Source: Symbiobacterium thermophilum IAM 14863
GTDB taxonomy: Bacteria; Bacillota; Sulfobacillia; Symbiobacteriales; Symbiobacteriaceae
Length of the DNA stretch: 64,000 bases
NCBI RefSeq assembly: GCF_000009905.1
Contig: NC_006177.1
Coordinates: forward strand, 744,001 to 808,000
Direction of reading: 5' to 3'
Every line of letters starts with the position of its first letter. Positions within the stretch are counted from its first letter, which is position 1. Shown here piece by piece: positions 26,752 through 43,745 of this stretch. The translations under genes were made by a program, and so were the position numbers. The notes beneath the pieces were generated by a model. That model saw only the letters and a list, made by a program, of their open reading frames with translations. It was not told the DNA's origin and searched no databases.

Positions 26752-27234
26752 ATGTACAAGACGGTAGTGAAGATGCTGGAAGACCGCGGCGTGATGCTCA
26801 GGGAGATCGCCGAGGTCGTGTATGAGATCCAGAAGTCCTACTATGACTCGCTGCCGCTGGAGGAATGCCTCGAGAGCGTGGAGGCGGTGGTGAAGAAGCG
26901 GGAGGTCCAGAACGCCATCCTGACCGGGCTGGCCCTGGATATGCTCGCGGAGGAGGGCAAGCTGCCCGAGCCGCTGCAGTCCATCGTCGCCGGCGACGAC
27001 TTCCTCTTCGGTGTCGACGAAATCGTGGCTCTCTCGATCACCAACATATACGGCTCCATCGGCCTCACCAACTTCGGCTATCTGGACAAGACCAAGCCGC
27101 TGGTGATCGGCCGGCTCAACTCCCACAAGAACGGCGGGTGCCACACGTTCCTGGACGACCTGGTCTCCGCCATCGCCGCGGCGGCGGCCAGCCGCATCGC
27201 CCACGCCCGCCGGCCCAGCAACAACGAGGACTGA
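26752..27234 (+). CDS. pgpA: Phosphatidylglycerophosphatase A-like protein (YutG family)
   Basis: The 160-residue product matches the YutG/PgpA family of Firmicutes: LEDRGVMLREIAEVVYEIQ, then ECLESVEAVVKKREVQNAILTG, GVDEIVALSITNIYGSIGLTN and CHTFLDDLVSAIAAAAASR. Family members dephosphorylate phosphatidylglycerol phosphate or are related proteins whose lipid substrate is less certain. No membrane segment is evident, unlike the enterobacterial PgpA. The ATG at 26752 follows aggagg. It lies alone, facing the sigma-54 regulator gene across a terminator-like repeat. Confidence 0.85.
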   Translation: MYKTVVKMLEDRGVMLREIAEVVYEIQKSYYDSLPLEECLESVEAVVKKREVQNAILTGLALDMLAEEGKLPEPLQSIVAGDDFLFGVDEIVALSITNIYGSIGLTNFGYLDKTKPLVIGRLNSHKNGGCHTFLDDLVSAIAAAAASRIAHARRPSNNED

Positions 27235-27302: not shown

Positions 27303-28670
27303 CTACCCGCGCCCGGTCCGCTCCTGCCGCGCCTTCCACTCCCGGATCTTGCGCGCGGCCGTCGTCTGGTGGATCCCCAATGCCCGGCCCACCTTCACGG
27401 AGCTGCCGAACCGGCGGTACGCCTCCCCGACCAGCTCCAGCTCCAGCGCTGCGACCGCCTCCTTCAGCGGCACGATCTCCCGCACCTGCACCGGCGGCCC
27501 CCCGGGTGCGGGCAGGGGCAGGTGCTCCGGCCGGATCTCCCGCTCATCCAGGGTCACCACCAACCGCTCCACCAGGTTCTCCAGCTCCCGGACGTTGCCC
27601 GGCCAGCTGTAGGCCACCAGCCGCTCCACCGCCTCGGGGGTGAGGGTGCGCTCCACCCGATACCGGGCGCAGAACCGGTCCAGGAAGGTCCTGGCCAGGA
27701 CCGGGATGTCCTCCGGCCGCTCCCGCAGCGGCGGGATCTTCACGGGCACCACGTTGAGCCGGTAGTACAGGTCCGCCCGGAAGCGGCCTTCGGCCACCAT
27801 CGCTTCCAGGTCCCGGTGCGTCGCGGCGATGATCCGGATGTCCACCGCCGTGGGGGTGACGGCCCCGAGCCGGATGATGCGCCGCTCCTGGATCACGTGC
27901 AGCAGCTTGACCTGCAGCTCCAGCGGCACGTCGCCGATCTCGTCGATGAACAGCGTGCCGCCGTGGGCCTGCTCAATGAGCCCGGGCTTGCCCTCCCGCC
28001 GGGCCCCCGTGAAGGAGCCGGGCGAGTAGTCGAAGAGCTCGGACTCCAGCAGGCTCCCCGGCAGGGCGGCGCAGTCGATGCGCACGAAGGGTCCGCTGCG
28101 GCGCGGGCTCAGCCGGTGGATCTCGGCCGCCAGCACCCCCTTGCCCACGCCGGACTCCCCCAGGAGGAGGATGGTGGAGTCGACCGGCGCCACCCGCCGG
28201 ATCAGGTCCATGACCCGCTGCATGGCCAGCGACGAGCCGACCACCTCGGCGCGCCCCGCCTGCCCGGCGCGCAGCCCGGCCAGTTCGTGGCGGTACCGTT
28301 CCCGCTCCTGGGTCATCCGCTCCACCTGCCGCTCCAGCCGATCCAGTTCCGTGATGTCCCGGGCCGTGGCCAGCACCCAGCCCTCCGGCAGCGGCACCGC
28401 CGTCAGCGCCAGCCGGCGCCCCGCCCGCTCCAGGACCATCGCCTGCCGCTCCCCGGTCTCCAGGCAGCGGCGCAGCACCGGCGGCACCCACTTGTCCCCG
28501 TCCTCCAGATCGGCCGGCCGGCGGTCCAGCAGCCTGGCCCGGGGGGTGCCCAGGAGCTGGGCCATGGCGCCGTTCACCAGCCGGATCCGCCCGTCCGGCG
28601 CGACCGCCAGGACGCCTTCGGCCAGGCCATCCAGCAGGGCGCGCACCACCGTTTCCGCCAGCGGAGCCAT
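27303..28670 (-). CDS. Sigma-54-dependent transcriptional activator with PAS domain
   Basis: This 455-residue activator has a PAS-like sensor (about residues 8-105), a coiled linker and an AAA+ core. Walker A is GESGVGKG, the sigma-54 contact loop is GSFTGA (usually GAFTGA), Walker B is [12 protein letters not shown], and the arginine finger region is FRADLYYRL. The C-terminal Fis-type helix-turn-helix contains [17 protein letters not shown]. The ATG at 28670 is seven bases after GGGAGG; two upstream in-frame ATGs lack such a site. It is divergent from the Liv/PaaK operon, which has a -24/-12 promoter, so it is the obvious activator. Two CTAAGC-N6-GCTTAG palindromes in the gap are its likely sites. 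Confidence 0.93.
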
Positions 28671-28736
28671 GCACATCCCTCCCGCAGAACCACAAATCAT
28701 AATTCTCTGGAATACAAACCATTCCTGCTTATGGAC

Positions 28737-28754
28737 CTAAGCAGGAATGCTTAG
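28737..28754. promoter_or_regulatory. Palindrome, copy 1 of the likely activator-binding site
   Basis: CTAAGC-aggaat-GCTTAG, an 18-base palindrome. Its left half is also the right arm of a longer perfect repeat, cattcctgctta (28720-28731) with taagcaggaatg (28738-28749). It is 67 bases ahead of the activator start and about 210 bases ahead of the -24 box, a usual distance for a sigma-54 enhancer. Confidence 0.65.
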
Positions 28755-28816
28755 GCCGGCCAGTCCACACGGGGGGCGGCCCGCGATCCGGCGACCCCGC
28801 CCGCCGGCGCCACAGG

Positions 28817-28834
28817 CTAAGCGAGGATGCTTAG
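28817..28834. promoter_or_regulatory. Palindrome, copy 2 of the likely activator-binding site
   Basis: CTAAGC-gaggat-GCTTAG, the same palindrome as at 28737-28754 with a different centre, 80 bases further on and about 130 bases ahead of the -24 element. Confidence 0.65.
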
Positions 28835-28858
28835 CTTGTGCGGCCGGGCCGTCCACGC

Positions 28859-28900
28859 GCTTGTGCCTCCCTGAATGGTTCAGGGAGGCACAAGCCTTTT
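28859..28900 (+). terminator. Long perfect hairpin with T tract between enhancer and promoter
   Basis: Seventeen-base perfect arms (28859-28875, gcttgtgcctccctgaa, and 28879-28895) around a 3-base loop, followed by cTTTT on the plus strand. It has every feature of an intrinsic terminator but lies upstream of the -24/-12 promoter. It may stop transcription entering the operon from upstream. Confidence 0.6.
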
Positions 28901-28963
28901 CCGGTGCACCGCGGCGTCGCTCCTGGGCGCGCCTTGGGGGGACCGCAGGGCAGCCGACGAGGT

Positions 28964-28978
28964 TGGCACGGCACTTGC
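28964..28978 (+). promoter_or_regulatory. Sigma-54 (-24/-12) promoter of the Liv/PaaK operon
   Basis: TGGCAC-ggcac-TTGC matches the sigma-54 consensus TGGCAC-N5-TTGC at every conserved position, with GG (28965-28966) and GC (28977-28978) 12 bases apart. The start codon of the first ligase gene is 32 bases downstream. Confidence 0.88.
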
Positions 28979-29009
28979 GTACTCGGTTCCGGGGGGAAGG
29001 GGGGATGCC

Positions 29010-30347
29010 ATGCAGATCGAGCTTGAGCGGTCCCACTGGCAGCCCGAAGCGGAGCGCATGGGGCGCGCGGAGCTGGCACGGCTTCAGGCGGAGCGGCTCC
29101 GGGCCCAGGTGGAGCGGGCCCTGGCCTCGCCGTTCTACCGGCGGCTCTGGCAGGGCGTGGGGCCCATCGACCCCGCCGATTTCCGGACCCCGGCCGACGT
29201 GGCCCGACTGCCCTTCCTGCACAAGTCGGACCTGGTGGATGCGCAGCTCCGGAAGCCGCCGCTGGGCGATCTGCCCATGAGCCCGGCCGAGGAGCGGCGG
29301 GAGGTCTATCCGGTGCACGTGGTGGGCGGCTCGCTCTACACCGTGTACGGCGAACGGGACCTGGCCCGCACCGCGGAGATCGGTGCGCGGATCATGTGGG
29401 GGCTGGGGCTCCGACCCGGAGAGCTGATCCACAACGCCTTCGGCTACGGCCTCTTCGCCGGCGGGATTTCCTGGCACCGGGCGGCCCGGGCCATGGGGGC
29501 GGCGATCATCCCAATCGGCACGGACTCGGTGAAGCGGCAGGTCGAGATGCTGTTCAACTTCCGGCCGGTGATGCTCATCGGCGCGCCGTCCCACGCCGTC
29601 TACCTGGCCGAGCGCATCCAGGAGCGGGGGCTCTCGCCCCGGGACATCGGGCTCCGCTACGGCCTCTTCGGCGGCGAGCCCGGCGCCGGAGAGCCCATCA
29701 CCCGGAAGCGGCTGGAGCGGCTCTACGGTTGCCCCGCCTTCGACTTCTACGGCATCACCGAGGTCGGCCCGCTCCTCGCCGGCGAGTGCCGGCTGCAGCA
29801 GGGGCTCCACTGGGCCGAGGACCACGTGCTGGTGGAGGTGATCAACCCCGCGACGATGGCGCCGTGCGCCGAGGGCGAGACCGGTGTGCTGGTGCTGACC
29901 GACCTGACCCGGGAGGACATGCCGCTGATCCGCTACTGGACAGGGGACATGGCGACCCTGGTCACCGAGCCCTGCGGTTGCGGCAGAACCCTCGCCCGCT
30001 CCCCCGGCGGGGTGCGGGGCCGGCTGGACGAGCTGGTCATGATCCGCGGCGCGAAGTTCTACCCGGTGCAGGTGGAGCGGGTGCTCTCGAGCTACGGCAC
30101 CCTGGCGGACGAGTACCGGATCGTGCTGGAGCGGGATCCGGCGACGTGGCTGGACCGCTGCACGGTGCAGGTGGAGGCGGCGCCGGGCGAGTTCCCCTCG
30201 CCGGCCCTGGAGGAGCGGATCAGCCGGCGGCTCTCGGACGAGCTGGCCGTGGACGTCGCGGTGCAGATCCTGCCCTACGGGTCGCTGGAGCGGTCGCCCC
30301 GCCGGGTGCGGATCGTCGACCGCCGCGCCGGGAGCGGGGGGCCTTGA
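29010..30347 (+). CDS. Phenylacetate-CoA ligase family protein (first of operon)
   Basis: This 445-residue AMP-forming ligase resembles PaaK. It has SPFYRRLW, a Pro-rich start (RTPADVARLPFLHKSDLV), YGLFGGEPGAGEPITRKRLE, FDFYGITEVGP as the adenylate-binding A5-type motif, YWTGDMATL, and RGRLDELVMIRGAKFYPVQVE in the C-terminal domain. Family members activate phenylacetate or other aryl or short acids as CoA thioesters; the G-rich P-loop is less clear than in PaaK (VVGGSLYTVYG). The ATG at 29010 has AAGGGGGG ahead and is 32 bases from the sigma-54 promoter. It is the first of eight co-oriented genes that include a Liv-type transporter. Confidence 0.88.
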   Translation: MQIELERSHWQPEAERMGRAELARLQAERLRAQVERALASPFYRRLWQGVGPIDPADFRTPADVARLPFLHKSDLVDAQLRKPPLGDLPMSPAEERREVYPVHVVGGSLYTVYGERDLARTAEIGARIMWGLGLRPGELIHNAFGYGLFAGGISWHRAARAMGAAIIPIGTDSVKRQVEMLFNFRPVMLIGAPSHAVYLAERIQERGLSPRDIGLRYGLFGGEPGAGEPITRKRLERLYGCPAFDFYGITEVGPLLAGECRLQQGLHWAEDHVLVEVINPATMAPCAEGETGVLVLTDLTREDMPLIRYWTGDMATLVTEPCGCGRTLARSPGGVRGRLDELVMIRGAKFYPVQVERVLSSYGTLADEYRIVLERDPATWLDRCTVQVEAAPGEFPSPALEERISRRLSDELAVDVAVQILPYGSLERSPRRVRIVDRRAGSGGP

Positions 30348-30433
30348 GCCCGCGGCGCCGGGCCGTGGGGCGGCGGAGGCAGCCGATGGGCACGACGGCG
30401 GACACGAGGTGTGAGCGAAGGAGGTGGCACGGG

Positions 30434-31216
30434 GTGAGCGAGATGCACCTGGCGGTTGAGGAGGTGGCGATCGGGTTCGGCGGGGTGAAGGCCCTGGACG
30501 GGGTCTCGCTGGCCGCCCGGAAGGGGTCCATCACCAGCATCATCGGGCCCAACGGGGCGGGGAAGACCAGCCTGATCAACTGCATCTCGGGGCGCTACAT
30601 TCCCCAGCAGGGGCGGATTCTGTTTGAGGGGCGCGAGATCACCCGGATGCCGCCTGCCCGGCGGGCGGAGCTGCGCATCGCCCGCACATTTCAGAACATC
30701 GCCCTGTTCAAGCACATGACCGTCCTCGAGAACCTGATGGTCGGCCGCCACGCCCTGATGCGCTCGGGGCTGCTGGCCTGCGGCCTCTGGTGGGGCCCGG
30801 CCAGGCGGGAGGAGATCGAGCACCGCAAGGCGGTGGAGGAGATCATCGATTTCCTCGAGATCGCGCACGTCCGGCGCAAGCCCGTGGGGATGCTGCCCTA
30901 CGGCCTGCAGAAGCGGGTGGAGCTGGGCAGGGCCCTGGCGCTGGAGCCCCGGCTGCTGCTCCTGGACGAGCCGATGGCCGGCATGAACGCCGAGGAGAAG
31001 GAGGACATGGTCCGCTTCATCCTCGACATCAACCAGGAGCGGGGGGTCACCTGCGTGTTGATCGAGCACGACATGGGCGTGGTCATGGACATCTCGGACT
31101 GGGTGGTGGTGCTGGACTTCGGCCGCAAGATCGGCGAGGGAACGCCCGAGGAAGTGCGCCGGAACCCCGAAGTGATCCGGGCCTACCTGGGGGACAAGGA
31201 CCTGGCGGTGGTGTAA
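30434..31216 (+). CDS. livG: Branched-chain amino acid-type ABC ATPase (LivG-like)
   Basis: The 260-residue ATPase has Walker A GPNGAGKTS near residue 36, RIARTFQNIALFKHMTVLENL, signature LPYGLQKRVELGRAL and Walker B LLLLDEPMAGMN. This arrangement, with the extra segment around residue 120 (MRSGLLACGLWWG), is typical of LivG. The signature LPYG replaces LSGG, common in LivG. GTG at 30434 follows aggaggtgg. It works with LivF (36569), permeases at 33202 and 34100 and the binding protein at 35340. Confidence 0.93.
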   Translation: MSEMHLAVEEVAIGFGGVKALDGVSLAARKGSITSIIGPNGAGKTSLINCISGRYIPQQGRILFEGREITRMPPARRAELRIARTFQNIALFKHMTVLENLMVGRHALMRSGLLACGLWWGPARREEIEHRKAVEEIIDFLEIAHVRRKPVGMLPYGLQKRVELGRALALEPRLLLLDEPMAGMNAEEKEDMVRFILDINQERGVTCVLIEHDMGVVMDISDWVVVLDFGRKIGEGTPEEVRRNPEVIRAYLGDKDLAVV

Positions 31217-31228
31217 GGGGGTGGTGTG

Positions 31229-33205
31229 GTGAGCGCAGAGCAGCTGGATACGTTGCCGAAGCGGCTGCAGGCGATGGCCGCGCGGTACGGCCGCAGCCGG
31301 GTCGCCCTCCGGGAAAAGGAGTACGGCATCTGGCAGGAGTACACGTGGCAGGACTACCTGGACCACGTGCGCGACTTCTGCCTGGGCCTGGTCTCCCTGG
31401 GCTTCCGGCGGGGCGACAAGATTGCGATCGTGGGCGACAACCGGCCGGAGTGGGTCATCGCCGAGCTGGCCGCGCAGTCCGCCGGCGGGACGTCGGTGGG
31501 CATCTACCAGGACTCGCTGGCCCGGGAGATGGCCTACGTCATCGACCACTCGGACGCCGTCGTCGTGGTCGTGGAGGACCAGGAGCAGGTGGACAAGATC
31601 CTGGAGGTGCGGGACCTCATCCCCAAGGTGCGGTACCTGGTCTACTACGATCCCAAGGGGCTGCGCACGTACACCGACCCGTGGCTGCTGTACTTTCCGC
31701 AGGTCATGGAGATGGGCCGGGAGTACGGCCGGCGGCACCCGGGCCTGTTCGAGGAGATGGTCGCGGCCGGGGACGGGGAGGACACCGCGATCATCTGCTA
31801 CACCTCCGGCACGACGGGCCACCCCAAGGGCGCGATGCTGAGCCACCGGAACCTGCTGGCGATGGGTGACACGATTCAGACCGTGGACCCGCTGACCCCG
31901 GACGACGACTTCCTCTCCTTCCTGCCCCTGGCCTGGATCGGGGAGCAGATGACCGCCCTGGCGATGCACCTCTCCGTCGGCTTCACCGTCAACTTCCCCG
32001 AAGAGCCGGACACGGTGCAGGAGAACCTGCGGGAGATCGGCCCCCACGTGATGTTCTCGCCGCCCCGGATCTGGGAGGACATGGTGACCCGGGTCCAGGT
32101 GCGGATCCAGGACGCCGGCTGGCTGAAGCGCAGGCTCTGGGAGTTCTTCCTCCCGGTGGGGCTCCGGGTGGCCGACGCCCGCTTCGCCCACCGGCCGGTG
32201 CCGCTGAAGGACCGCCTGCTGTACGCCCTGGGCGAGTTCCTGGTCTACAGCGCCGTCAAGGACCACCTGGGGCTCTCCCGGCTGAAGCGGGCCTACACCG
32301 GCGGCGCGGCGCTGGGGCCGGACGTCTTCCGGTTCTACCACGCCCTGGGCGTGAACCTGAAGCAGATCTACGGCCAGACGGAGATCGTGGGGATCGCGGT
32401 GCTGCACCGGGACGACGACATCCGCTTCCACACGGTGGGCACGCCGCTGCCCGGCGGCGAGATGGCCATCTCCCCGGAGGGGGAGATCCTGCTCCGGAGC
32501 CGGGCGGTGTTCCAGGGCTACTACAAGATGCCCGAGGAGAGCGCCAGGGCCCTGGCCGGCGGCTGGCTGCACACCGGCGACGCCGGGTACATCGAGGAGG
32601 AGTCGGGGCACCTGGTGGTGATTGACCGGCTGAAGGACGTGATGCGGCTGAGCACCGGCGAGATCTTCTCGCCCAACTTCATCGAGAACAAGCTGAAGTT
32701 CTCTCCCTACATCAAGGAAGCGGTGGCGGTGGGCGACCGCCGCACCCACGTGGTGGCGATGGTCAACATCGACCTGCAGTCGGTGGGCCACTGGGCCGAG
32801 GGACAGGGGATTCCGTACACCACCTACCAGGACCTGTCCCAGAAGGGGCCGGTGCTGGACCTGATCGCCGGCGAGATCGCCCGGGTCAACGCCGAGTTGC
32901 CCGAGGCGGCCCGCATCCGCTCGTTCGTGATCCTGCACAAGGAGCTGGACGCGGACGACGAGGAGCTGACCCGCACCCGGAAGCTCCGGCGCGGGTTCGT
33001 GTACCAGAAGTACGCCCCGGTGATCGAGGGGCTTTACGCCGGGGCGGACGAGATCCCCGTGCAGAGCAAGGTCCGCTACCGGGACGGCCGGGAGGCGGTC
33101 ATCGAGACGGTGCTGCAGGTGCGGAGGCTCCTGCCCGTGCCCGGCGCCGCCCCGGAGGTCGAGCAGCCTGAGCCGCGCGCGGCCGGAGGAGGTGGCGTCG
33201 GATGA
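31229..33205 (+). CDS. AMP-forming long-chain acyl-CoA synthetase (FAA1/FadD15 type)
   Basis: This 658-residue ligase activates a carboxylic acid with ATP and CoA. The AMP-binding signature YTSGTTGHPKGA (bases 31798-31833) is intact; IYGQTEIVG and the hinge-like TGDAGYIEEESGHLVVIDRLKD are present. The sequence is of the large FAA1-like type, which usually acts on long-chain or bulky acids. Two GTG codons (31226 and 31229) are possible; the second has better spacing from AAGGGGGTGG. It lies between livG and livH, so the imported or internal substrate is likely CoA-activated. The stop overlaps livH by four bases. Confidence 0.92.
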   Translation: MSAEQLDTLPKRLQAMAARYGRSRVALREKEYGIWQEYTWQDYLDHVRDFCLGLVSLGFRRGDKIAIVGDNRPEWVIAELAAQSAGGTSVGIYQDSLAREMAYVIDHSDAVVVVVEDQEQVDKILEVRDLIPKVRYLVYYDPKGLRTYTDPWLLYFPQVMEMGREYGRRHPGLFEEMVAAGDGEDTAIICYTSGTTGHPKGAMLSHRNLLAMGDTIQTVDPLTPDDDFLSFLPLAWIGEQMTALAMHLSVGFTVNFPEEPDTVQENLREIGPHVMFSPPRIWEDMVTRVQVRIQDAGWLKRRLWEFFLPVGLRVADARFAHRPVPLKDRLLYALGEFLVYSAVKDHLGLSRLKRAYTGGAALGPDVFRFYHALGVNLKQIYGQTEIVGIAVLHRDDDIRFHTVGTPLPGGEMAISPEGEILLRSRAVFQGYYKMPEESARALAGGWLHTGDAGYIEEESGHLVVIDRLKDVMRLSTGEIFSPNFIENKLKFSPYIKEAVAVGDRRTHVVAMVNIDLQSVGHWAEGQGIPYTTYQDLSQKGPVLDLIAGEIARVNAELPEAARIRSFVILHKELDADDEELTRTRKLRRGFVYQKYAPVIEGLYAGADEIPVQSKVRYRDGREAVIETVLQVRRLLPVPGAAPEVEQPEPRAAGGGGVG

Positions 33206-34095
33206 GCAGCGGCCTCGGCTTCTTCCTGAACCTGCTGGTCAACGGCATCGTCGTGGGGGCCCTCTACGCCCTGGTGGCCCTGGGCTTCGTGCTCATCTAC
33301 AAGGCCAGCGGGGTGATCAACCTGGCCCAGGGCGAGCTGGTGCTGCTCGGGGCCTACATCGGGCTCACGTTCACCACCGAGTTGAACCTCCCGTTTGCGC
33401 TGGCCCTGCTGCTCACCATCGCGGTCAGCGCGCTGGTGGGCGTGGCCATCGAGCGGGCGGTGCTCCGGCCGTTCATCGGCGAGCCGCCGATCTCCATCAT
33501 CATGGTGACGATGGGGCTCTCCTTCCTGATCAAGGCCGTGATTCACGGGATCTGGGGCACCGACATGCGCTCCTTCCAGGGGCTCTTCCGCAGCGAGCCC
33601 ATCGTCATCGGGCCGGTGGCCATCTCCGAGGTTTTCCTCTGGGGCCTGGTGGCGGCCCTGATCCTGCTGGTCCTGCTCAACGCCTTCTTCAAGTACAGCC
33701 TGCTGGGCATCGCCATGCGGGCGACGGCCGACGACGAGCAGGCGGCGCTCTCCATGGGCATCTCCGTGAAGCGGGTCCTGGCGGCGACGTGGGCGGTGGC
33801 GGCGATGGTGGCCGCGGTGGGCGGCATCTTCCTGGGGAACATCGCCGGCGTGAACCCCCTGCTCACCTCCTACGGGCTGAAGGTGCTGCCGGTGGCCATC
33901 CTCGGCGGGCTGGACTCGATCCCCGGCGCCATCCTGGGCGGCTTCCTCATCGGCATCCTGGAGGCGCTGACCGGCGGCTACCTGGACCAGTACCTGACCG
34001 GCATCAAGGAAGTGGTGCCCTTTGTCGTCATGATCGTCATCCTGCTGATCCGGCCGTACGGCCTGTTCGGCAAGGAGATCATCGAAAGGGTGTAG
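33202..34095 (+). CDS. livH: Branched-chain amino acid-type ABC permease (LivH-like)
   Basis: This 297-residue inner-membrane protein has about eight hydrophobic segments, starting LLVNGIVVGALYALVALGFVLIYKASGVINLAQGE, cited here only by its INLAQGE core, a LivH hallmark. It also has ALRATADDEQAALSMGI-like text (MRATADDEQAALSMGI) and LGGLDSIPGAILGG. The ATG overlaps the synthetase stop (ATGA). It forms a heterodimeric channel with LivM. Confidence 0.95.
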   Translation: MSSGLGFFLNLLVNGIVVGALYALVALGFVLIYKASGVINLAQGELVLLGAYIGLTFTTELNLPFALALLLTIAVSALVGVAIERAVLRPFIGEPPISIIMVTMGLSFLIKAVIHGIWGTDMRSFQGLFRSEPIVIGPVAISEVFLWGLVAALILLVLLNAFFKYSLLGIAMRATADDEQAALSMGISVKRVLAATWAVAAMVAAVGGIFLGNIAGVNPLLTSYGLKVLPVAILGGLDSIPGAILGGFLIGILEALTGGYLDQYLTGIKEVVPFVVMIVILLIRPYGLFGKEIIERV

Positions 34096-34099
34096 GCCT

Positions 34100-35179
34100 G
34101 TGCAGCGACTGTTGCGGTACCCGTTCGCCCTGGAGTGCGGGGTGTACATCACCACCTACGAGCAGGACCACGCCCTGCACCAGACCCCGCTGGCCGTGGC
34201 CCGCGGCTGGGTGCTGGTCGCCCTGCTCTACGCGATCCCGTGGTTCCTGCCCAACTACTACGTCTCGATCCTGAACATGGTGGCGATCTACACCATCGCC
34301 GCGCTGGGGCTCAACCTGCTCACCGGCGTGACCGGGCAGATCTCGGTGGGCCACGGCGCCTTCACCGGGATGGGCGCCTTCACGGTGGGCTACCTGATGA
34401 AGCAGGGGCTCCCGTTCTGGGTCGCGATGCCGCTGGCCGGGCTCACCGCCGCCGCCGTCGGGGCCCTCTTCGGGCTGCCGTCCGCCCGCCTGAAGGGGCT
34501 TTACCTCGCCATCGCCTCGCTGGCGGCGCAGGTGATCCTCACGTTCTTCTTCACCCGGGCCGACTGGTTCACCGGGGGCATCCACTCGATGTCGGTCAGG
34601 CGGCCGAGCTTCTTCGGTCACACCCTCTCCGGTGAACGCAGCTACTTCTACCTGGCCCTGACGGTGGCGCTGCTGCTCGGGGTCTTCGCCCAGAACCTGC
34701 TCCGCACCCGGATCGGGCGGGCGTTCATGGCCGTGCGGGACCGGGACCTGGCGGCCGAGGTCATGGGCATCGACCTGTTCCGGACGAAGGTGACGGCCTT
34801 TGCGCTGTCGGCGTTCTACGCCGGCATCGCCGGGGCGATCTGGGCTCCGTACGTGATGATCATCTCGCCGGAGCAGTTCGAGATCCACCTGTCCATCGAG
34901 CTGCTCGCGATGATCATCATCGGCGGCATGGGCTCGGTGATGGGGTCCGTCTACGGCGCCGCCTTCATGACGGTCATGCCGATCGTGGTGCGGGAGCTGG
35001 CGATGCTGCTGGAGCCGGTGTTCCCGTCCGTTGGCACCAAGCTGCTGCTGATCCGGGATGCGGCCTTCGGCGCCGCGATCGTGCTCTTCCTGATATTCGA
35101 GCCCGAGGGGCTGGCCAAGCTCTGGCGGAACATCAAGGATTACTTTCGGCTCTGGCCCTTCGGTTACAGCAAGTCGTGA
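34100..35179 (+). CDS. livM: Branched-chain amino acid-type ABC permease (LivM-like)
   Basis: This 359-residue membrane protein has about ten segments. It contains LGLNLLTGVTGQISVGHGAF, AVRDRDLAAEVMGID and MIIIGGMGSVMGSVYGA, all LivM features. An N-terminal extension of about 30 residues (VYITTYEQDHALHQTP) precedes the first segment. GTG at 34100 lies four bases after the livH stop. Its partners are LivH and the two ATPases. Confidence 0.95.
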   Translation: MQRLLRYPFALECGVYITTYEQDHALHQTPLAVARGWVLVALLYAIPWFLPNYYVSILNMVAIYTIAALGLNLLTGVTGQISVGHGAFTGMGAFTVGYLMKQGLPFWVAMPLAGLTAAAVGALFGLPSARLKGLYLAIASLAAQVILTFFFTRADWFTGGIHSMSVRRPSFFGHTLSGERSYFYLALTVALLLGVFAQNLLRTRIGRAFMAVRDRDLAAEVMGIDLFRTKVTAFALSAFYAGIAGAIWAPYVMIISPEQFEIHLSIELLAMIIIGGMGSVMGSVYGAAFMTVMPIVVRELAMLLEPVFPSVGTKLLLIRDAAFGAAIVLFLIFEPEGLAKLWRNIKDYFRLWPFGYSKS

Positions 35180-35249
35180 GCGGTGAGCGATGGGAGGGGC
35201 TGTGCGCCGTAACCCGAGGTTCTGCGTTGCGGGGCACAGCACACGTGGT

Positions 35250-35280
35250 CCCCTGTGCCGAGGGGGGATCGGCGCAGGGG
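35250..35280 (+). other. Stem-loop ahead of the binding-protein gene
   Basis: cccctgtgccga (35250-35261) and tcggcgcagggg (35269-35280) pair with one G-U wobble around a 7-base loop, in the 160-base gap between livM and livK. Stems at this position often protect the downstream mRNA so that the binding protein is made in excess; that role is inference. Confidence 0.4.
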
Positions 35281-35339
35281 ACGTGGACAGCGACCGCCTG
35301 CGGAAGCCGGCGGACGAGAGCAGAGGAGGTAGGGGAAGG

Positions 35340-36551
35340 ATGCGGTGGCAGAAGCGGGTCTGGAATCTCGTGGGGGCGCTCCTGTGTCTCGCGCTGCTGG
35401 CCGGCTGTGGCGGCCGGGGCTCGGGCGCCGGCGGATCCGGCGGGTCGGCCGCCCAAGGGCCGATCAAGGTCGGCGGGATCTTCGACATCACCGGCGCGAC
35501 GGGCGACGTGGGCAAACCACACGCCGACGGGGCCCGGGCGTGGTTCGACTACCTGAACAACGAGCTGGGCGGGGTGAACGGCCGGAAGGTGGAACTGGTC
35601 TGGGGCGACTACGCCTACCAGGTGCCCAAGGCGGTGGAACTGTACAAGAAGTACGTGAACGAGGACAAGGTGGTCGCGATCCTGGGCTGGGGCACCGGCG
35701 ACACCGAAGCGATGAAGGAGCTGATCGCCCAGGACAAGATCCCGTACCTGTCAGGCTCCTTCGCGGAGAGCCTGACGGATCCGTCGGTCACCCCGTACAA
35801 CTTCATCGTCTCGTCCACCTACTCGCAGCAGGCCCGGGTGCTGCTGGACTGGATCAAGGAGCAGAAGCCTGACGCGAAGGTCGGCATCATCTTCCACGAC
35901 TCGCCCTTCGGCCAGGCGCCCGTGGCGGATGCCAAGGCCTACGCGCAGCAGATCGGCCTCACCTGGGTGGGCGAGGCGGCGCTGCCCGGCGCGGCGGCGG
36001 ACGCGGTCACCCAGGTGCTGGACCTGCACAACAAGGGCGTCGAGTTCATCATGATCCAGAACGTGGTGAAGGGCACGGCCCAGGTGCTGAAGGCCGTCCA
36101 GCAGCAGGGCCTGCGCGACAAGATCCAGGTCGTGGGCATGACCTACTCGGTGGACGAGACGCTGCTCACCGCGGCCGGTGACGCGGCGGAGGGCTTCGTC
36201 GGCACCCCGGCCTTCGTCTTCCCGTACGACGAGGGGCCCGGAATCGACGAGGCGGTGGCCTACGCCGAGAAGATCGGCCTGAAGCGGGAGGACCTGACCC
36301 AGAAGTGGCTCCAGGGCTGGGTGTTCGGCCGCATCCTGACCGAGGCGATCCGCCGGGCCGGCGAGGACGTCACCGGCGAGACCCTGAAGGCCGCGTTCGA
36401 GACCTTCAACGAACTGGACCTGGGCGGGATCGGCGCCCCGCTGACGTTTACGCCCACGGACCACGGCGGCATGGACAGGGCCCGCATCTACCAGGTGCAG
36501 AACGGCCGCTTCGTGGCGATCACGGACTTCGTGGAGCCCAAGGGGAAGTAG
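35340..36551 (+). CDS. livK: Branched-chain amino acid/amide-type ABC substrate-binding lipoprotein (LivK-like)
   Basis: This 403-residue binding protein has a lipoprotein signal (LLCLALLAGC, Cys23) and a Gly/Ser linker, followed by a Leu/Ile/Val-binding-type domain: IKVGGIFDITGATGDVG, ARAWFDYLNNELGGVNGRKVEL, LGWGTGDTEAMKELI and VGIIFHDSPFGQ. The ligand pocket residues do not match the classic amino acid set closely, so an organic or aromatic acid is possible. The ATG follows gaggaggtagggg. It is the extracytoplasmic component of the Liv transporter of this operon. Confidence 0.93.
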   Translation: MRWQKRVWNLVGALLCLALLAGCGGRGSGAGGSGGSAAQGPIKVGGIFDITGATGDVGKPHADGARAWFDYLNNELGGVNGRKVELVWGDYAYQVPKAVELYKKYVNEDKVVAILGWGTGDTEAMKELIAQDKIPYLSGSFAESLTDPSVTPYNFIVSSTYSQQARVLLDWIKEQKPDAKVGIIFHDSPFGQAPVADAKAYAQQIGLTWVGEAALPGAAADAVTQVLDLHNKGVEFIMIQNVVKGTAQVLKAVQQQGLRDKIQVVGMTYSVDETLLTAAGDAAEGFVGTPAFVFPYDEGPGIDEAVAYAEKIGLKREDLTQKWLQGWVFGRILTEAIRRAGEDVTGETLKAAFETFNELDLGGIGAPLTFTPTDHGGMDRARIYQVQNGRFVAITDFVEPKGK

Positions 36552-36568
36552 GGATGTGAGGTGGTCCG

Positions 36569-37360
36569 GTGCTCGTTCTGAATAACGTGGAAGTGATGTA
36601 TGAGCGGGTCATCCTGGTGCTGAAGGGCATGTCGCTGCAGGTGCCCGAGGGAAAGGTGGTGGCGCTGCTGGGCGCCAACGGGGCGGGCAAGACGACGACC
36701 CTGAAGGCGATCTCCGGTCTGCTGAAGTCGGAGAACGGCGAGGTCACGGACGGCAAGATCGAGTTCATGGGCGAGAGGATCACCAACCTCGAGGCGGCCG
36801 AGATCGTCCGCAAGGGGATCTTCCAGGTGATGGAGGGCCGGCACGTCTTCGAGCACCTGACGGTGGAGGAGAACCTGCTTGCCGGGAGCTACACCCGCAC
36901 CGACCGGCGGAACGTGCGCAGCGACCTGGACATGGTCTACCATTACTTCCCCAAGCTGGTGCACCGGCGGCGGCAGAAGGCCGGCTACCTCTCGGGCGGG
37001 GAGCAGCAGATGGTGGCCATCGGGCGGGCCCTGATGGCCCGGCCGAAGCTGGTGCTGCTGGATGAGCCGTCGCTGGGGCTCGCCCCCCGTCTGGTGCGGG
37101 AGATCTTCGATATCATCCGGCGGCTGAACGAGGAGACGAAGACCACGTTCCTGGTGGTGGAGCAGAACGCCATGGTGGCCCTCTCCATCGCTCACTACGG
37201 CTACGTGATGGAGAACGGCCGGATCGTCCTGGAGGGGCCGGTGCAGACGCTCCTGAACAACGAGGACGTCAAGGAGTTCTACCTCGGCCTCACCGGCGTG
37301 GGGCGGAAGAGTTACCGGGAGGCGAAGGCCTACAAGCGCAGGAAACGGTGGTTGGCATGA
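36569..37360 (+). CDS. livF: Branched-chain amino acid-type ABC ATPase (LivF-like)
   Basis: The 263-residue ATPase has Walker A GANGAGKTT near residue 36, LEAAEIVRKGIFQVMEGRHVFEHLTVEEN reduced here to its GIFQVMEGR core, signature LSGGEQQMVAIGRAL, and Walker B LVLLDEPSLGLAP. The DEPSLGLAP form marks LivF. It is read just after livK and overlaps the last ligase gene by four bases (ATGA). A C-terminal basic extension (KSYREAKAYKRRKRW) is longer than in most LivF proteins. Confidence 0.94.
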   Translation: MLVLNNVEVMYERVILVLKGMSLQVPEGKVVALLGANGAGKTTTLKAISGLLKSENGEVTDGKIEFMGERITNLEAAEIVRKGIFQVMEGRHVFEHLTVEENLLAGSYTRTDRRNVRSDLDMVYHYFPKLVHRRRQKAGYLSGGEQQMVAIGRALMARPKLVLLDEPSLGLAPRLVREIFDIIRRLNEETKTTFLVVEQNAMVALSIAHYGYVMENGRIVLEGPVQTLLNNEDVKEFYLGLTGVGRKSYREAKAYKRRKRWLA

Positions 37361-38604
37361 AGGGGAAGGGAGCAGGGGGCGGCGCCGGAGGCCTGAGCCT
37401 CTGGGTGCCGCCCGGAGGAGAGGAGCGGTTGCGGAAGGTGCTGGCGGCGGCCCGGGCGGGGAGCCCGGTCTGGCGGGAGCGGCTGGACGCCGCCGGCCTC
37501 GCTGATGCGGAGCCCGGCGGGGACGGAATGCCCGGCGGCCCCCGCTGGCAGGCCCTGCCGGTGCTCCGCAAGGAGTTGCTGGGCAGCGTGCAGGCCGGAT
37601 CCCCGCCCTTCGGCGGGCTGCTGGGCGTCCCCGTGGAGCAGCTGGCCCGCATCTTCGTCAGCCCCGGCGACGTGTACGACCCGCAGGGCACCGATCCGGA
37701 CTACTGGCGGTTCGGCAAGGTCCTCGCCGCCGCGGGCTTCGAGCGGGGCGAGCGGGTGCTCAACTGCTTCAGCTACCATCTGACGCCGGCGGGGTTCATG
37801 TTCGACGCCGCCGCCCGGGCGCTGGGGTGCGTGGTGGTCCCGGCCGGAGTCGGGCAGCAGGACCTGCAGATCCGGGTGGCGCGGGCGGTGGGGGCCACCG
37901 GTTACACCGGGCTGCCTTCGTACCTGCTGGCCCTGCTGGACCGGGCGGCGGCCGCGGGCACGCCGTTGCCGCTGCGCCGGGCGGTGGTGACCGGCGAGCC
38001 GCTGCCCGAGGCGCTGCGGGCGCGGATCGAGGCCCACGGTGTGACGGTCCGCCAGGCCTACGGCACGGCGGACGTGGGCCTGATCGGCTACGAGTGCGGG
38101 CGCGGCGCCGGGCTGCACATCGACGACGGGGTCATCGTCGAGATCTGCGACCCGGACGGCCGGACGCTGCCCCCCGGGGAGGTGGGGGAGGTCGTCGTCA
38201 CGGCCCTGCAGGAGACCTATCCGCTCATCCGGTTCGGCACGGGCGACCTGAGCGCGCTCGTGGCGGAGCCCTGCCCCTGCGGCCGCCCGTCGGCCCGCCT
38301 GAAGGGGTGGATGGGCCGGGTGAGCGAGGTCACCAAGGTCCGGGGGATCTTCCTCTACCCGAAGCAGTTGGAGGCGGCGATGGCCGGGCTGGCCGGCGGC
38401 GTGCAGCGCTGGCGTGCGGTGGTGGAGCGGGACGCGGATCACCGGGACGTGCTGCGCATCGAGTTCGCCGGGCAGGCGGATCCCCGGGCCGTGCGGGACG
38501 CCGTCCGGGCGGCTGTGCGGCTGAACCCGGACGTGCTGGTCGTCCCCCCCGGCGCGATCCCGGCCGACGGGCCGCTCTTCCAGGACCGGCGCAACTGGGA
38601 CTGA
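37357..38604 (+). CDS. Second phenylacetate-CoA ligase family protein
   Basis: This 415-residue protein is a shorter, more divergent PaaK-like ligase. It has LPVLRKELLG, FVSPGDVYDPQGTD, LPSYLLALL, VVTGEPLPEALRARIE, QAYGTADVGLIGYEC (the A5-type motif), RFGTGDLSAL and KVRGIFLYPKQLE. The N-terminal phosphate-binding loop is partly lost (FVSPGDVYDP). A final Asp/Trp/Asn-rich tail replaces the usual catalytic Lys loop, so it may be a modified or ancillary enzyme. The start ATG at 37357 overlaps livF. It is the last gene before the terminator. Confidence 0.85.
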   Translation: MKGKGAGGGAGGLSLWVPPGGEERLRKVLAAARAGSPVWRERLDAAGLADAEPGGDGMPGGPRWQALPVLRKELLGSVQAGSPPFGGLLGVPVEQLARIFVSPGDVYDPQGTDPDYWRFGKVLAAAGFERGERVLNCFSYHLTPAGFMFDAAARALGCVVVPAGVGQQDLQIRVARAVGATGYTGLPSYLLALLDRAAAAGTPLPLRRAVVTGEPLPEALRARIEAHGVTVRQAYGTADVGLIGYECGRGAGLHIDDGVIVEICDPDGRTLPPGEVGEVVVTALQETYPLIRFGTGDLSALVAEPCPCGRPSARLKGWMGRVSEVTKVRGIFLYPKQLEAAMAGLAGGVQRWRAVVERDADHRDVLRIEFAGQADPRAVRDAVRAAVRLNPDVLVVPPGAIPADGPLFQDRRNWD

Positions 38605-38668: not shown

Positions 38669-39379
38669 TTACCGGTCGGGCTGCTCCGCCAACAGCTCTT
38701 CGAGCAGGTCCCTGTCGGTCTCCGCAAAGCCGGCCAGCAGGTCCGCCCAGCCGCGGTAGTACGCGGTTTCGGCGTGCTGCCTCACGTCGGCGGCGAACCG
38801 GGGCACCCACTGCATCAGGTGGTCGTCGAGGAACGCCTGCTGATCCTGCAGGATGGTGTGGACCCCGTCGATGTCGCCCGCGGCCGCCGCTCCCGCGGCC
38901 AGGCGGCAGGTCTCGTACAGGAAGCTCAGCTCCAGCCCGATGTGGTCGTCGGGCTCAGTGCCCAGCTTCGGCGCCACCAGCCCGTACCGGCGGTACGCCT
39001 CCCTGACCTCCAGGGTCACTTCCTGGAAGACCAGCCGGTCCACCGTGCGGTAGGCCGATTCATAGGGCGGAGCCGGGAGCCGGGCGGGCCCGACGAACAG
39101 GCGGGTGTAGTCCCAGACCAGTCGGTCGACCGCTTCGGCGGACCGGTTGGCGGGGTCGGCGAGGAAGGCGCCGACCGCTGCGGTGCCCTGCTGAATCGCC
39201 GGATGATCCTGGCCGAAGGGGAACAGCCGCACGGCTCCGGTCTCGGCCAGGTTTTCGATCTGCTCACGCTGCGGCTCGACGAGGAAGGCCTGCATCAGCA
39301 GCGCGTAGGCGAAGCCCCGGGCCTCCAGGACGGTTTCCAGTTCCCCCTGCATGGCCAGGACATGGGCGGTGGTCACCAT
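38669..39379 (-). CDS. TorD/DmsD-family molybdoenzyme chaperone
   Basis: This 236-residue all-helical protein resembles the TorD family, which binds the signal peptide and helps insert the molybdenum cofactor into DmsA-type enzymes. Landmarks are LVWDYTRLFVGPARLPAPPYESAY, here cited by YTRLFVGP and PPYES, and DDHIGLELSFLYE. The ATG at 39379 is eight bases after GGGAG; the upstream GTG has no site. It is the last gene of the DmsABC operon, 45 bases after dmsC. Confidence 0.85.
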   Translation of the reverse strand: MVTTAHVLAMQGELETVLEARGFAYALLMQAFLVEPQREQIENLAETGAVRLFPFGQDHPAIQQGTAAVGAFLADPANRSAEAVDRLVWDYTRLFVGPARLPAPPYESAYRTVDRLVFQEVTLEVREAYRRYGLVAPKLGTEPDDHIGLELSFLYETCRLAAGAAAAGDIDGVHTILQDQQAFLDDHLMQWVPRFAADVRQHAETAYYRGWADLLAGFAETDRDLLEELLAEQPDR

Positions 39380-39424
39380 GCACAACACTCCCGCTGGTTC
39401 TGGATGTGAACGGTACGCAGGGGC

Positions 39425-40279
39425 CTAGCCGATCGACATGGGCACGCCTGTGGCGTAGAACAGGTAGCGGCCCACCAGTTCGCCGGCCACCATGCACACC
39501 AGCGCCGCGTAGACCAGTCCGCTGGTCTTCTGGCCCGCGGAGAGCCGGCGCCACGCGATCAGCAGCGGCACGGCCCCTCCGGCCAGGGTGAGCGCCCACC
39601 GCAGGGCGAGCCAGCCCGCGAAGGGGCCGCCCAGCAACTGGAGCGAGGCCTGCGCCTCGGCGCCGCCGTTGCCCAGCGAGGCCAGGTACAGCGGGTAGGC
39701 GACGAGGCCGAGGATCAGGGCTGCGATCGCCGCCCCGACCAGCTGCTGCAGGTCGCCGGCCGCCTCCTCCACCGAGCGGCCGAAGAAGGCGACCAGGCCC
39801 GCCGCGAGCCCGGCGCCGGCCAGCACGGTGGTGCCCACGAACGCCGCGTAGGTGCCCCAGCCCTGCCAGGCGGGGATCACGGTGGCCGTGTAGACCGCGC
39901 CCATGCTGAACACCGCCACGGCACCGGCCAGGGCGGTCAGCGCCGAGAGGGCCTTCCGACCCGGTGCGGACTTCTCCAGGAGGACGGTGGCGGCCAGGAG
40001 GGCGAAGAATGCGCCGCTGAAAAAGATCTCGCGCGAGAGCCAGGACGTGGCGAGCCGGCGCAGCGAGGTGAAGGCCAGCATCGGCCTACCCAGGTGGAAC
40101 AGCGACGCCACCAGCGCCACCGCCATGATCGGCAGCAGGACGGCGATGGACCTGCGATAGACCGCATCCATCGCCTCGCTGCGGTTGCGCAGCCGCAGCC
40201 AGGAAAGCAGGATGAAGGCGCCGACGGACGCCTGACTGAGCACCGTGAAGAGCACCAGGGCGAACTCCTTGGTTTCCAT
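39425..40279 (-). CDS. dmsC: DmsC-type membrane anchor subunit
   Basis: This 284-residue protein has eight predicted membrane segments and the DmsC-like N-terminus (ELALVLFTVLSQASVGAF, which is EFALVLFTVLSQASVGAF here), LFHLGRPMLAF and SREIFFSGAF. It anchors the catalytic dimer and oxidises menaquinol. ATG at 40279 lies 15 bases after the dmsB stop with gggaggt ahead. Confidence 0.9.
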   Translation of the reverse strand: METKEFALVLFTVLSQASVGAFILLSWLRLRNRSEAMDAVYRRSIAVLLPIMAVALVASLFHLGRPMLAFTSLRRLATSWLSREIFFSGAFFALLAATVLLEKSAPGRKALSALTALAGAVAVFSMGAVYTATVIPAWQGWGTYAAFVGTTVLAGAGLAAGLVAFFGRSVEEAAGDLQQLVGAAIAALILGLVAYPLYLASLGNGGAEAQASLQLLGGPFAGWLALRWALTLAGGAVPLLIAWRRLSAGQKTSGLVYAALVCMVAGELVGRYLFYATGVPMSIG

Positions 40280-40294
40280 CGCTTGACCTCCCTC

Positions 40295-40852
40295 CTACCG
40301 CCGGGCTTGCGGCTTCAGGGTGACCAGCATCGAGGGCCCGGTCAGCTCGGCGCCCGGGGCTCCCCAGCTGGTGAAGACCTCGGCTTCGGGATGCCTGCGC
40401 TTCAGTTCGTCCAGGTCGCCGAACTCCAGCGCGCGCATGACGCAGGCGTCCACGCAGGCCGGGTTCTGACCCCGTTCGACCAGGTCGACGCAGCCGTTGC
40501 ACTTGCCCACGACACCCTGCTCCTCGAGGTAGTGCCGGGCGCCGTAGGGGCACGACCAGACGCAGTACTGGCACCCGATACAGGCCTCCTGGTCGACCAG
40601 GACCAGGCCGTCTTCCTCCCGCTTGTAGGAGGCGCCGGTCGGGCAGTTGGTCACGCACCGCGGGTCGCTGCAGTGGTTGCACGAGATGGAGATGTTGAAG
40701 ATCCACGGCTTCGGGTACCGCCCGCCCTCAAAGGTGTAGACATTGCGGTACATGACCCCCAGGGGCAGGTCGTTCTTATCCTTGCACGCGATGTAGCAAG
40801 CCTTGCACCCGACGCAGGCGGTCATGTCATAGTAAAAGCCTTTCTGTGCCAC
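40295..40852 (-). CDS. dmsB: DmsB-type four-cluster iron-sulfur subunit
   Basis: This 185-residue electron-transfer subunit has four cysteine groups for [4Fe-4S] clusters: CVGCKACYIAC (residues 13-23), CNHCSDPRCVTNCP, CIGCQYCVWSCP and CNGCVDLVERGQNPACVDAC in part. It carries electrons from DmsC to DmsA. It lies 15 bases after dmsA. Confidence 0.93.
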   Translation of the reverse strand: MAQKGFYYDMTACVGCKACYIACKDKNDLPLGVMYRNVYTFEGGRYPKPWIFNISISCNHCSDPRCVTNCPTGASYKREEDGLVLVDQEACIGCQYCVWSCPYGARHYLEEQGVVGKCNGCVDLVERGQNPACVDACVMRALEFGDLDELKRRHPEAEVFTSWGAPGAELTGPSMLVTLKPQARR

Positions 40853-40867
40853 GGTGACGCCGCCTCC

Positions 40868-43444
40868 TTACTTCAGGGGGATCCGCGGCTCCCAGGTGTG
40901 GTCGGGTGCCAGCGGCTCGTCGTAACGCGTGACCTCGACGATACAGGAGTTCCACGCCGAGATGCCCTGGCCGGAGGGGATTCCGCCGCAGAGGATGTTG
41001 TCGGCGCCGGCCTTGTCGATCTGCTTCTCCTCGTCCATCTCCACCCAGGCCCCGTGGGGCAGTCCCACGACGCCGGGCATGATCAGGTCGGTGACGTGCG
41101 CCCGGCGCAGGACCTTGCCGTGACGGCTGGTGATGAGCACGGTGTCGCCGTCCTTGATGCCCCGGGCGGCGGCGTCCTGGCTGTTCAGCATCACCATGCT
41201 GGGGAAGGCCTCGCGGAGCCAGGTCACGTTGTCGAAGACGCTGTGGGAGCGCCGCGGGTAGTGCGGGTTGATGACCTGGAGCGGGTACTCGCCCTTGATC
41301 TTCTTCTCCCAGTCCGCGAAGGTGTCCTCATAGCCTTCCTTGCGCGGCTGGTAGGTGGGGATCGGATCAATCTCGGTGAAGCCGTAGCCCTTGATCAGGT
41401 CCGCGAGAGCCTGGCAGTGGATCTCCAGCTTGCCGCTGGCGGTGTTGAGCGGGTTGTTCTCGGGATCCTTCCGGAAGGCCTCGTAGGCGATGAAGCCAAG
41501 CTTGTCGCCCGGACGGCGGGGCACCTGGTAGATGCCGCGCTCCTCGAACTCCTTCAGGGTGATGCGCCCCTGCTGCGGCTTGCCTTCCACGCCCCATTCG
41601 GCGATGTCTTCCTCGGTGATGGTGAGCAGCGGTTCGTACCCCGAACCGTCTTCCTTCATCACCTTCGACCCGGCCAGCTGGTTGAAGAGCTGCTGCTTCT
41701 CGGAGATCGGGTAGATGTCCTCTTCCTTGAAGCCCAGCCGCTTGGCGATCTCGGTGGCGATCCAGGCGTCGTCCTTGGCCTCGAACAGCGGCTGCGTGAC
41801 GTTGGTGTAGTAGATGAGGATCTCGCGGTTGCCGGTCAGCAGGCCGCCCAGCCGCTCCCAGGGCGTGGTCACGGGCAGCACGATGTCCGCGTACTTCGAG
41901 TTGGTGGTGAGGAACTGGCTGTGGGAGACCACGAACTCGACGTGGCGGTGCGCCTCGATGCCCTTGGTCATGCCGTCCCGGGTCTGCAGGATGGCGCCGC
42001 CGCCGTGGTAGATCATCTGGATGTTGATGTCCCGGACGTCGTTGTAGCCTGCGGTGTACTTGCCGGTGAGGACCGCGTTCCAGAGCTCGCTGTCGTTGAT
42101 CGATTCGTTGATCGGGTTCTTGATGCCCGGCAGGCCGGCGCCGCCGCTCGTCACCAGGTTGGGGCCGCCGTTGGCGGTATGCCGGTGGCAGCTCACGCCC
42201 GTCATGCGGCCCGGCTGGCCCATGTGGCCGGTCATCGCGCCGAAGGTCATGAACATCTGGGGCCAGCTGTCGGAGTTGCGCGTGCGGGCGGGCGCCCAGG
42301 CGGTGAGCAGGGCGACGCGCGGGGTGGTCGCGATCTCCCGGGCCAGCCGGCGGATGGTGTGCGGATCGACGCCGCAGATCTCGGAGGCCCACTCCGGCGT
42401 CTTGGGCTGGCCGTCGTAGGTGCCCAGGACGTAGTCCTTGAAGTTCTCCTTCGGGTCGGCGCCCTCCGGCATGTGGTCCGCGTCGAAGCCGACCGTGCAG
42501 CGGTTCAGGAAGTCCCAGTCGATCAGCGGGTTGTTGACGGGATCGTCTTCGGTGATCAGGGTGTAGGCCATGCCCAGCATCATCGCGTGGTCGGTGCCGG
42601 GCCGGATGGGGATCCACTCATCGGCCAGCAGCTCCGCCGACTGGTGGTAGATCGGGTCGATGAAGATGAACTTGGCCCCGGCCTTCTTGGCCTGCAGGTA
42701 GTGGTAGGTCGGGCTGCCGCCCGCGCTCCACGCCGGGTTCCCGCCCCAGATCACGATCAGGTTGGAATTACGCAGGTCGAGCCGGTCGTTGATGCTGGTA
42801 TCGTTGTACCCTTCCGCCATGCCGAACTTGGCCGGCCCCCAGCGCCAGCTTCCCCACGACGTCGTGCCCCAGGTGCCCACATACCCGCCGTAGAGCGCCA
42901 GGGTGCGGCCGATCTCGCTGCCGCCGGTGGAGAGGATGGCGCGGTTGCCGTACTTCTCCACGATCCGCTTGATCTCGCTGGCGACGATGTCCAGCGCCTC
43001 GTCCCACGAGATGCGGACCCACTCGTCGCGACCCCGGAGGTCCTTCCGGCCGCCGCCGGGTTCCCAGTGCTTGCGCTTCATCGGGTACCGGAGCCGGTCC
43101 ACCGCGAAGACCTGCTTCCGCTGCGACCGGCCGCGGGCGCAGCCGCGCTGCTGCGGGAAGTCGGGCGAGTCTTCGTGGGTGTCGTCGGTCTTCTGTCGGA
43201 TGACGACGCCGTCCCTGACCAGGGCCTTGTTCAGGCACCGGCCGCCACAGTTGTGCCAGCAGGCCGCGGTGACCCACTTGCCCTCTTCGGCAGCGGGAGC
43301 TGCCTTGGCCTTTGCCGGGTCCAGTTTGAGCAGCCCCGTCTGGTTGCCGAGCAGCAGCGCTGCGCCTGCGGTTGCGGCGCTCCAGCCCAGGAACCGACGC
43401 CGATCGAGCTTATACTGGCCTGCTGATCGGATGAGTTTGGCCAT
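40868..43444 (-). CDS. dmsA: DmsA-type molybdopterin oxidoreductase, catalytic subunit
   Basis: This 858-residue enzyme has a Tat signal (DRRRFLGWSAA, residues 14-24) and a first domain with ACWHNCGGRC and a downstream RGCARGRSQR that together ligate a [4Fe-4S] cluster. The rest is a molybdopterin guanine dinucleotide-binding fold: RISWDEALDIVA, VIWGGNPAW, and the C-terminal VFDNVTWLREAFPS and GDTVLITSRHGK. It is closest by eye to DMSO reductases, but the same family covers other sulfoxide, N-oxide and selenate or arsenate enzymes, so the electron acceptor is uncertain. ATG at 43444 follows GGAGGTGG. The order is dmsA-dmsB-dmsC-chaperone. Confidence 0.92.
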   Translation of the reverse strand: MAKLIRSAGQYKLDRRRFLGWSAATAGAALLLGNQTGLLKLDPAKAKAAPAAEEGKWVTAACWHNCGGRCLNKALVRDGVVIRQKTDDTHEDSPDFPQQRGCARGRSQRKQVFAVDRLRYPMKRKHWEPGGGRKDLRGRDEWVRISWDEALDIVASEIKRIVEKYGNRAILSTGGSEIGRTLALYGGYVGTWGTTSWGSWRWGPAKFGMAEGYNDTSINDRLDLRNSNLIVIWGGNPAWSAGGSPTYHYLQAKKAGAKFIFIDPIYHQSAELLADEWIPIRPGTDHAMMLGMAYTLITEDDPVNNPLIDWDFLNRCTVGFDADHMPEGADPKENFKDYVLGTYDGQPKTPEWASEICGVDPHTIRRLAREIATTPRVALLTAWAPARTRNSDSWPQMFMTFGAMTGHMGQPGRMTGVSCHRHTANGGPNLVTSGGAGLPGIKNPINESINDSELWNAVLTGKYTAGYNDVRDINIQMIYHGGGAILQTRDGMTKGIEAHRHVEFVVSHSQFLTTNSKYADIVLPVTTPWERLGGLLTGNREILIYYTNVTQPLFEAKDDAWIATEIAKRLGFKEEDIYPISEKQQLFNQLAGSKVMKEDGSGYEPLLTITEEDIAEWGVEGKPQQGRITLKEFEERGIYQVPRRPGDKLGFIAYEAFRKDPENNPLNTASGKLEIHCQALADLIKGYGFTEIDPIPTYQPRKEGYEDTFADWEKKIKGEYPLQVINPHYPRRSHSVFDNVTWLREAFPSMVMLNSQDAAARGIKDGDTVLITSRHGKVLRRAHVTDLIMPGVVGLPHGAWVEMDEEKQIDKAGADNILCGGIPSGQGISAWNSCIVEVTRYDEPLAPDHTWEPRIPLK

Positions 43445-43745
43445 GTGCGTCCACCTCCACGGGTTATTCACCATTCCCCGTGCCCGGGACTTCGTCCGCA
43501 GGGTGGCCACGGGCACGGGGACGCAGGCAACTACGTCCAGTTTTCTTGATTTGGCTGCCGGGGCGAAAGGACCCCATCGCTTATTTTTCGGTACTCGAAG
43601 GCCTTAGCCGCTGGTTCCTTGGGTCAGGGAACCGCTACGTGTACAGCGTGTAGGTCCGAATAGCCCGGATGGGCCATGGTGGAGTCACAGCGGGCCGGCC
43701 CGGAAGAGATGACCCGGGGCACAAGCCAGGTGCGGGTGCAGGCGC
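43445..43745. other. Intergenic region upstream of the dms operon
   Basis: No gene is seen. A palindromic pair, ggttcc (43613-43618) with ggaacc (43628-43633), and an A/T-rich patch at 43575-43595 could mark the operator and promoter of dmsA. A TTGAT half-site is present near 43546 but no complete FNR box was found. Confidence 0.4.

Follow-up and report, generated by a model that had tools for sequence, protein, structure and literature searches.

A predicted sigma-54 switch with a TyrR-type activator at a Liv-type transport and acyl-CoA ligase operon of Symbiobacterium thermophilum

Results

The stretch of DNA analysed here, called the window, comprises 64 kb of the Symbiobacterium thermophilum IAM 14863 genome (contig NC_006177.1, positions 744,001 to 808,000), and coordinates refer to the window unless stated otherwise. 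Eight genes are closely packed on the forward strand from 29010 to 38604. The first encodes a PaaK-like acyl-CoA ligase (ligase 1, 29010-30347) and is followed by the genes for a LivG-type ABC ATPase (30440-31216), a FadD-like acyl-CoA synthetase of the long-chain type (31226-33205), a LivH-type permease (33202-34095) and a LivM-type permease (34100-35179). Then come a LivK-type solute-binding protein (35190-36551), a LivF-type ABC ATPase (36569-37360) and a second PaaK-like acyl-CoA ligase (ligase 2, 37348-38604), for which the model of the C-terminal AMP-binding domain gave no match. Homology of the LivK-type protein starts near residue 91, and its true start is probably inside the 35190-36551 frame. 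The domain and family matches confirmed the original prediction of an operon for a Liv-type transporter with three acyl-activating enzymes. The gene set looks like a module for carboxylic acid import coupled to CoA activation. The operon adjoins a convergent cluster of the molybdopterin-oxidoreductase type (38669-43516), which encodes a chaperone matching Nitrate_red_del together with membrane anchor, iron-sulfur and catalytic subunits, these three being read from the sequence only.

A sigma-54 activator is encoded divergently on the reverse strand at 27303-28670 and was characterised by Pfam matches and orthologue alignment. The protein has a PAS domain, an AAA+ domain (Sigma54_activat, PF00158, E 2e-65), an AAA lid and a C-terminal HTH_50 domain (PF18024, E 1.9e-9, above the cut-off), which is the TyrR-type helix-turn-helix. 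PAS, AAA+ and Fis domains had been proposed for it; the first two were recovered by Pfam, whereas the third had to be replaced, as the C-terminal domain is HTH_50 and not HTH_8/Fis. An ACT domain was not found in the Pfam result, and on the NCBIfam TyrR equivalog the activator scores 252, below the cut-off of 576. Its best NCBIfam match is PrdR, with a score of 342 that is far under the cut-off of 795. The GAFTGA-type loop is present as GSFTGA, which was counted among the loop variants compatible with activation in a survey of the Clostridiales (PMC6615313).

The open reading frame of the activator reaches 28700, and GGAGGGATG before 28670 is conserved in the genus. Since homology begins at 28670, the ATG at this position, behind the conserved GGAGGG, is more likely to be the start than 28700. 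A small PgpA-domain protein is encoded next to the activator gene (26752-27234), and the two are also adjacent in two further genomes of the genus (G001 and G002).

The sequence TGGCAC-N5-TTGC that had been proposed as a sigma-54 promoter lies at 28964-28978 on the forward strand (TGGCACGGCACTTGC). It has GG at -24, GC at -12 and the correct spacing, and is close to TGGCAC-N5-TTGCW. Measured against the extended consensus, TTGGCACG-N4-TTGCW, the site reaches 12/13 and is the best and the only one above 11 in the window. In the form TGGCACG-N4-TTGC it is kept in all four genomes that we compared, followed in each by G or C, as against the usual A or T.

A lack of rpoN had been named as grounds for giving up the sigma-54 reading; the gene was found at genome positions 266831-267307 (E 5.5e-64). 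When the whole genome, a single contig of 3,566,135 bases (3.57 Mb), was searched for further -24/-12 promoters, TGGCAC-N5-TTGCW was found nine times as an exact match, and the reversed pattern used as a control was found once. Together with the site at 28964 this makes ten sites, eight of which have a sigma-54 activator domain at most 10 kb away; 0.5 were expected by chance, and none of 5,000 random draws exceeded 4. For a limit of 3 kb the count was six (0.16 expected). A promoter beside an activator is thus the usual arrangement in this genome. One consensus -24/-12 site (L036, genome 265873-265888) precedes the matched part of rpoN by about 1 kb and is distant from all sigma-54 activator genes.

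Upstream of the promoter, the two palindromes with identical arms, CTAAGC-N6-GCTTAG, are exact at 28737-28754 and 28817-28834, and the distances of about 210 and 130 bases proposed for them are right when measured from the palindrome end to the -24 element. We consider them candidate upstream activator sites 1 and 2; both are conserved in the relatives. The genome search for this sequence that had been proposed revealed no exact copies other than these two in the whole 3.57 Mb, and allowing one mismatch added a single site. Perfect dyads with 6-bp arms were surveyed over the whole window with spacers of 0-12, which gave 30-60 dyads per spacer, and CTAAGC/GCTTAG was the sole case of a same-arm pair at most 300 bp apart. 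The original prediction did not recognise the palindrome. Its letters indeed differ from those of TyrR sites, yet these 18-bp 6-N6-6 dyads upstream of the target have the TyrR layout. Since the helix-turn-helix of the activator is of the TyrR type (HTH_50), the palindrome is supported as a putative variant of the TyrR-type 18-bp 6-N6-6 site with other letters. When 6-bp-arm dyads were counted by spacer in 110 pooled upstream regions of activator homologues, N6 was not in excess, a count that says little, as most of these proteins are only remotely related and have little more than the AAA+ domain in common.

The four genomes compared were the present one, G001 and G002 of the same genus, and G007, which belongs to a different family of the order and consists of one contig of 3,599,694 bases. 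The activator orthologue is 89% identical in G002, 83% in G001 and 58% in G007, and in all three it is found beside the same operon. The gene order is identical in G001, in G007 and in the available part of G002, where the contig ends inside the operon. The two dyads with the N6 spacer are separated by 80 bp here, 82 bp in G002, 82 bp in G001 and 89 bp in G007, and, counting upstream from the -12 base, their centres lie at 214-238 and 132-156 bp. For each of the four genomes, 300 first-order shuffles of the region were made; counting N6 only, 0, 4, 1.3 and 0.7% of them equalled the dyad pair. An alternative spacer scores slightly above N6 in G001 and G007 and ties with it in G002, so that N6 in these genomes rests on position plus symmetry. 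When the three closest genomes were aligned, the dyads, a block on the activator side and the promoter stood out because the rest of the spacer is poorly conserved. The half-site in G007 is CTATGC, compared to CTAAGC here, and the helix-turn-helix region differs alongside it (GIHQSTAVRK is one version); the sigma-54 contact loop is GAFTGA in G007 and GSFTGA here. Taken together, these results support the overall reading of a sigma-54 circuit, since all of its named components are present, and three further genomes have kept the promoter, the dyad pair and the operon.

The block on the activator side (28698-28732, reverse strand) runs from CATAATTCTCTGGAAT to ATTCCTGCTTA and is near-invariant in the three genomes of the genus. 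The promoter of the activator gene probably lies here; a search of the control region, this block included, gave no sigma-70 consensus. The block contains the symmetry GGAAT-N7-ATTCC, and AATTCTCTGGAAT within it has a loose likeness to the CodY box. A third conserved half-site, TGCTTA (28726-28731), is found at the edge of the block; paired with the left half of palindrome 1, it gives a dyad that faces outward. This overlapping dyad, TGCTTA-N6-TAAGCA (28726-28743), is exact here and in G002, with a spacer of 7 in G001. Since the half-site abuts the near-invariant block, an activator bound there could limit its own expression, acting as a possible autorepressor besides its proposed role at the operon.

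Between site 2 and the sigma-54 promoter lies a perfect 17-bp hairpin, GCTTGTGCCTCCCTGAA-TGG-TTCAGGGAGGCACAAGC, on the forward strand at 28859-28895. It is followed by CTTTTCC, which gives a short U tract and a terminator-like appearance, and its computed fold has -34.1 kcal/mol over 61 nt (z -5.1). As it is present in a single copy in the genome, we rejected a genome-wide repeat, and a family match in Rfam was not found. The hairpin is possibly an insulator, a terminator or an attenuator.

Discussion

From the sequence elements, the protein domains, rpoN, the conservation and the synteny, we consider it highly probable that the two dyads are bound by the activator, which opens the sigma-54 promoter of the importer and ligase operon once its PAS domain detects a carboxylic acid or a derivative of one. 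In the divergent control region (28670-29010), activator dimers would occupy the two 18-bp dyads. The ligand of the PAS domain, probably the carboxylic acid that the operon imports or a compound derived from it, would lead to the assembly of the AAA+ ring, and DNA looping would bring the activator into contact with the sigma-54 RNA polymerase at 28964-28978. ATP hydrolysis would then open the promoter, and transcription of the ligase-LivG-FadD-LivHMKF-ligase genes would allow the acid to be imported and trapped as a CoA thioester. With the upstream dyad positioned against its own promoter region, the activator may at the same time restrict its own synthesis.

Further loci with the LivG-FadD-LivHMKF-ligase module (L156-L162) were found in Bacillota, Deinococcota and Alphaproteobacteria. 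The same order, LivG-FadD-LivH-LivM-LivK-LivF-ligase, is carried by plasmids in Deinococcus taeanensis and in Azospirillum brasilense, and Xanthobacter autotrophicus has nearly the same order as here. Four other Bacillota genomes share the module, one of them without the last ligase. In the Bacillota genomes G062 and G133 a nearby sigma-54 activator has HTH_8, whereas it has HTH_50 here, and a CoA-transferase pair takes the place of ligase 1 in G062 and L156. Among the module loci of other lineages, -24/-12 sites were found in none of L156, L158 and L160, and L159 has one site (11/13, at 7688) about 250 bp before LivG; sigma-54 control of the module is not established outside this order.

A literature search found nothing direct on this module or on sigma-54 in this organism, and the context of the plasmid matches gave no named substrate. 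The inducer and substrate might be phenylacetate or another aryl acid and not a branched or hydroxylated short-chain acid, which would be compatible with the mechanism above. The best solved-structure matches of ligase 1 are phenylacetate-CoA ligases (4r1l, 2.5e-71); however, it also matches 2-hydroxyisobutyryl-CoA synthetase (6hdw, 5e-62). On the PaaK equivalog TIGR02155 the two ligases score 279.5 and 109.4 against a cut-off of 646.3, which places both far below it. The neighbours of the module elsewhere also argue against an aryl acid: in Azospirillum these are isobutyryl-CoA dehydrogenase, 3-hydroxyisobutyrate dehydrogenase and isovaleryl-CoA dehydrogenase, and in Xanthobacter a methylmalonyl-CoA-mutase-like pair. 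Because of these neighbouring branched-chain acid genes, phenylacetate and a branched or hydroxylated short acid are equally likely as the inducer, and we regard the aryl acid as a tentative, somewhat disfavoured candidate.

It is unlikely that another regulator, such as a repressor, occupies the dyads and that the activator uses less symmetric sites nearby. Such a regulator would fit the position of dyad 1, which adjoins the conserved block on the activator side, the conservation of the third, outward-facing half-site and the other symmetric elements of the intergenic region, such as the one in the block. However, the distance of the dyads from the promoter is standard for enhancers, their 18-bp 6-N6-6 form is that of TyrR sites (PMC4894688), and they are found only here in the genome and together with the activator gene in all four genomes. 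That a sigma-A promoter upstream of the hairpin mainly drives the operon, with the hairpin as attenuator and the sigma-54 promoter in a minor role, is very improbable. The hairpin with its short U tract between site 2 and the -24/-12 site, and its identical core in G002, would fit such a reading. However, G001 lacks the hairpin, all four genomes keep the -24/-12 site, and neither a sigma-70-type promoter nor an Rfam match was found in the region.

The proposed activation of the operon from the two dyads can be compared to known systems. TyrR sites have the sequence TGTAAA-N6-TTTACA, and the sites of GcsR from Pseudomonas aeruginosa are 18-bp palindromes, TGTAACG-N4-CGTTCCG (PMC4894688). As in the present case, GcsR/TyrR-like enhancer-binding proteins combine AAA+ with a TyrR-type helix-turn-helix, and in GcsR repeated 18-bp palindromes lie upstream of a sigma-54 promoter (PMC4894688). 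In contrast to GcsR, the half-sites here are CTAAGC/GCTTAG and form two inward-facing sites about 80 bp apart, not three; the N-terminus shows PAS alone in Pfam, and the target is an operon for acid import and activation. PAS-type sigma-54 activators of the Bacillota control catabolic operons, PrdR being one example, and 39 groups were described in the Clostridiales (PMC6615313). The activator gene beside its target, the upstream sites and the -24/-12 promoter are common to the PrdR-type systems and the present locus, whereas the PrdR score is far too low for PrdR itself. Symbiobacterium does not appear in the main text of the two sigma-54 surveys consulted, PMC6615313 included, nor does the target operon in the main text of the latter.

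A more speculative and rather doubtful extension is that the three conserved half-sites in 28726-28754 act as a switch, where one pairing turns the operon on and the other shuts the activator gene off, and that the half-site drifted between CTAAGC and CTATGC alongside the helix-turn-helix changes between families. If this is true, the drift would be a small natural series for DNA recognition by TyrR-type proteins.

In conclusion, the predicted circuit is a conserved, ordinary sigma-54 switch of the textbook kind, whose activator is of the TyrR type and whose site sequence is new, and it leaves the understanding of sigma-54 control unchanged. It yields a testable site motif and a target for one sigma-54 activator of Symbiobacterium. 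Through it, a TyrR-type regulator is also linked to a widespread import-and-activation module, and the inducer could reveal the substrate of this module.
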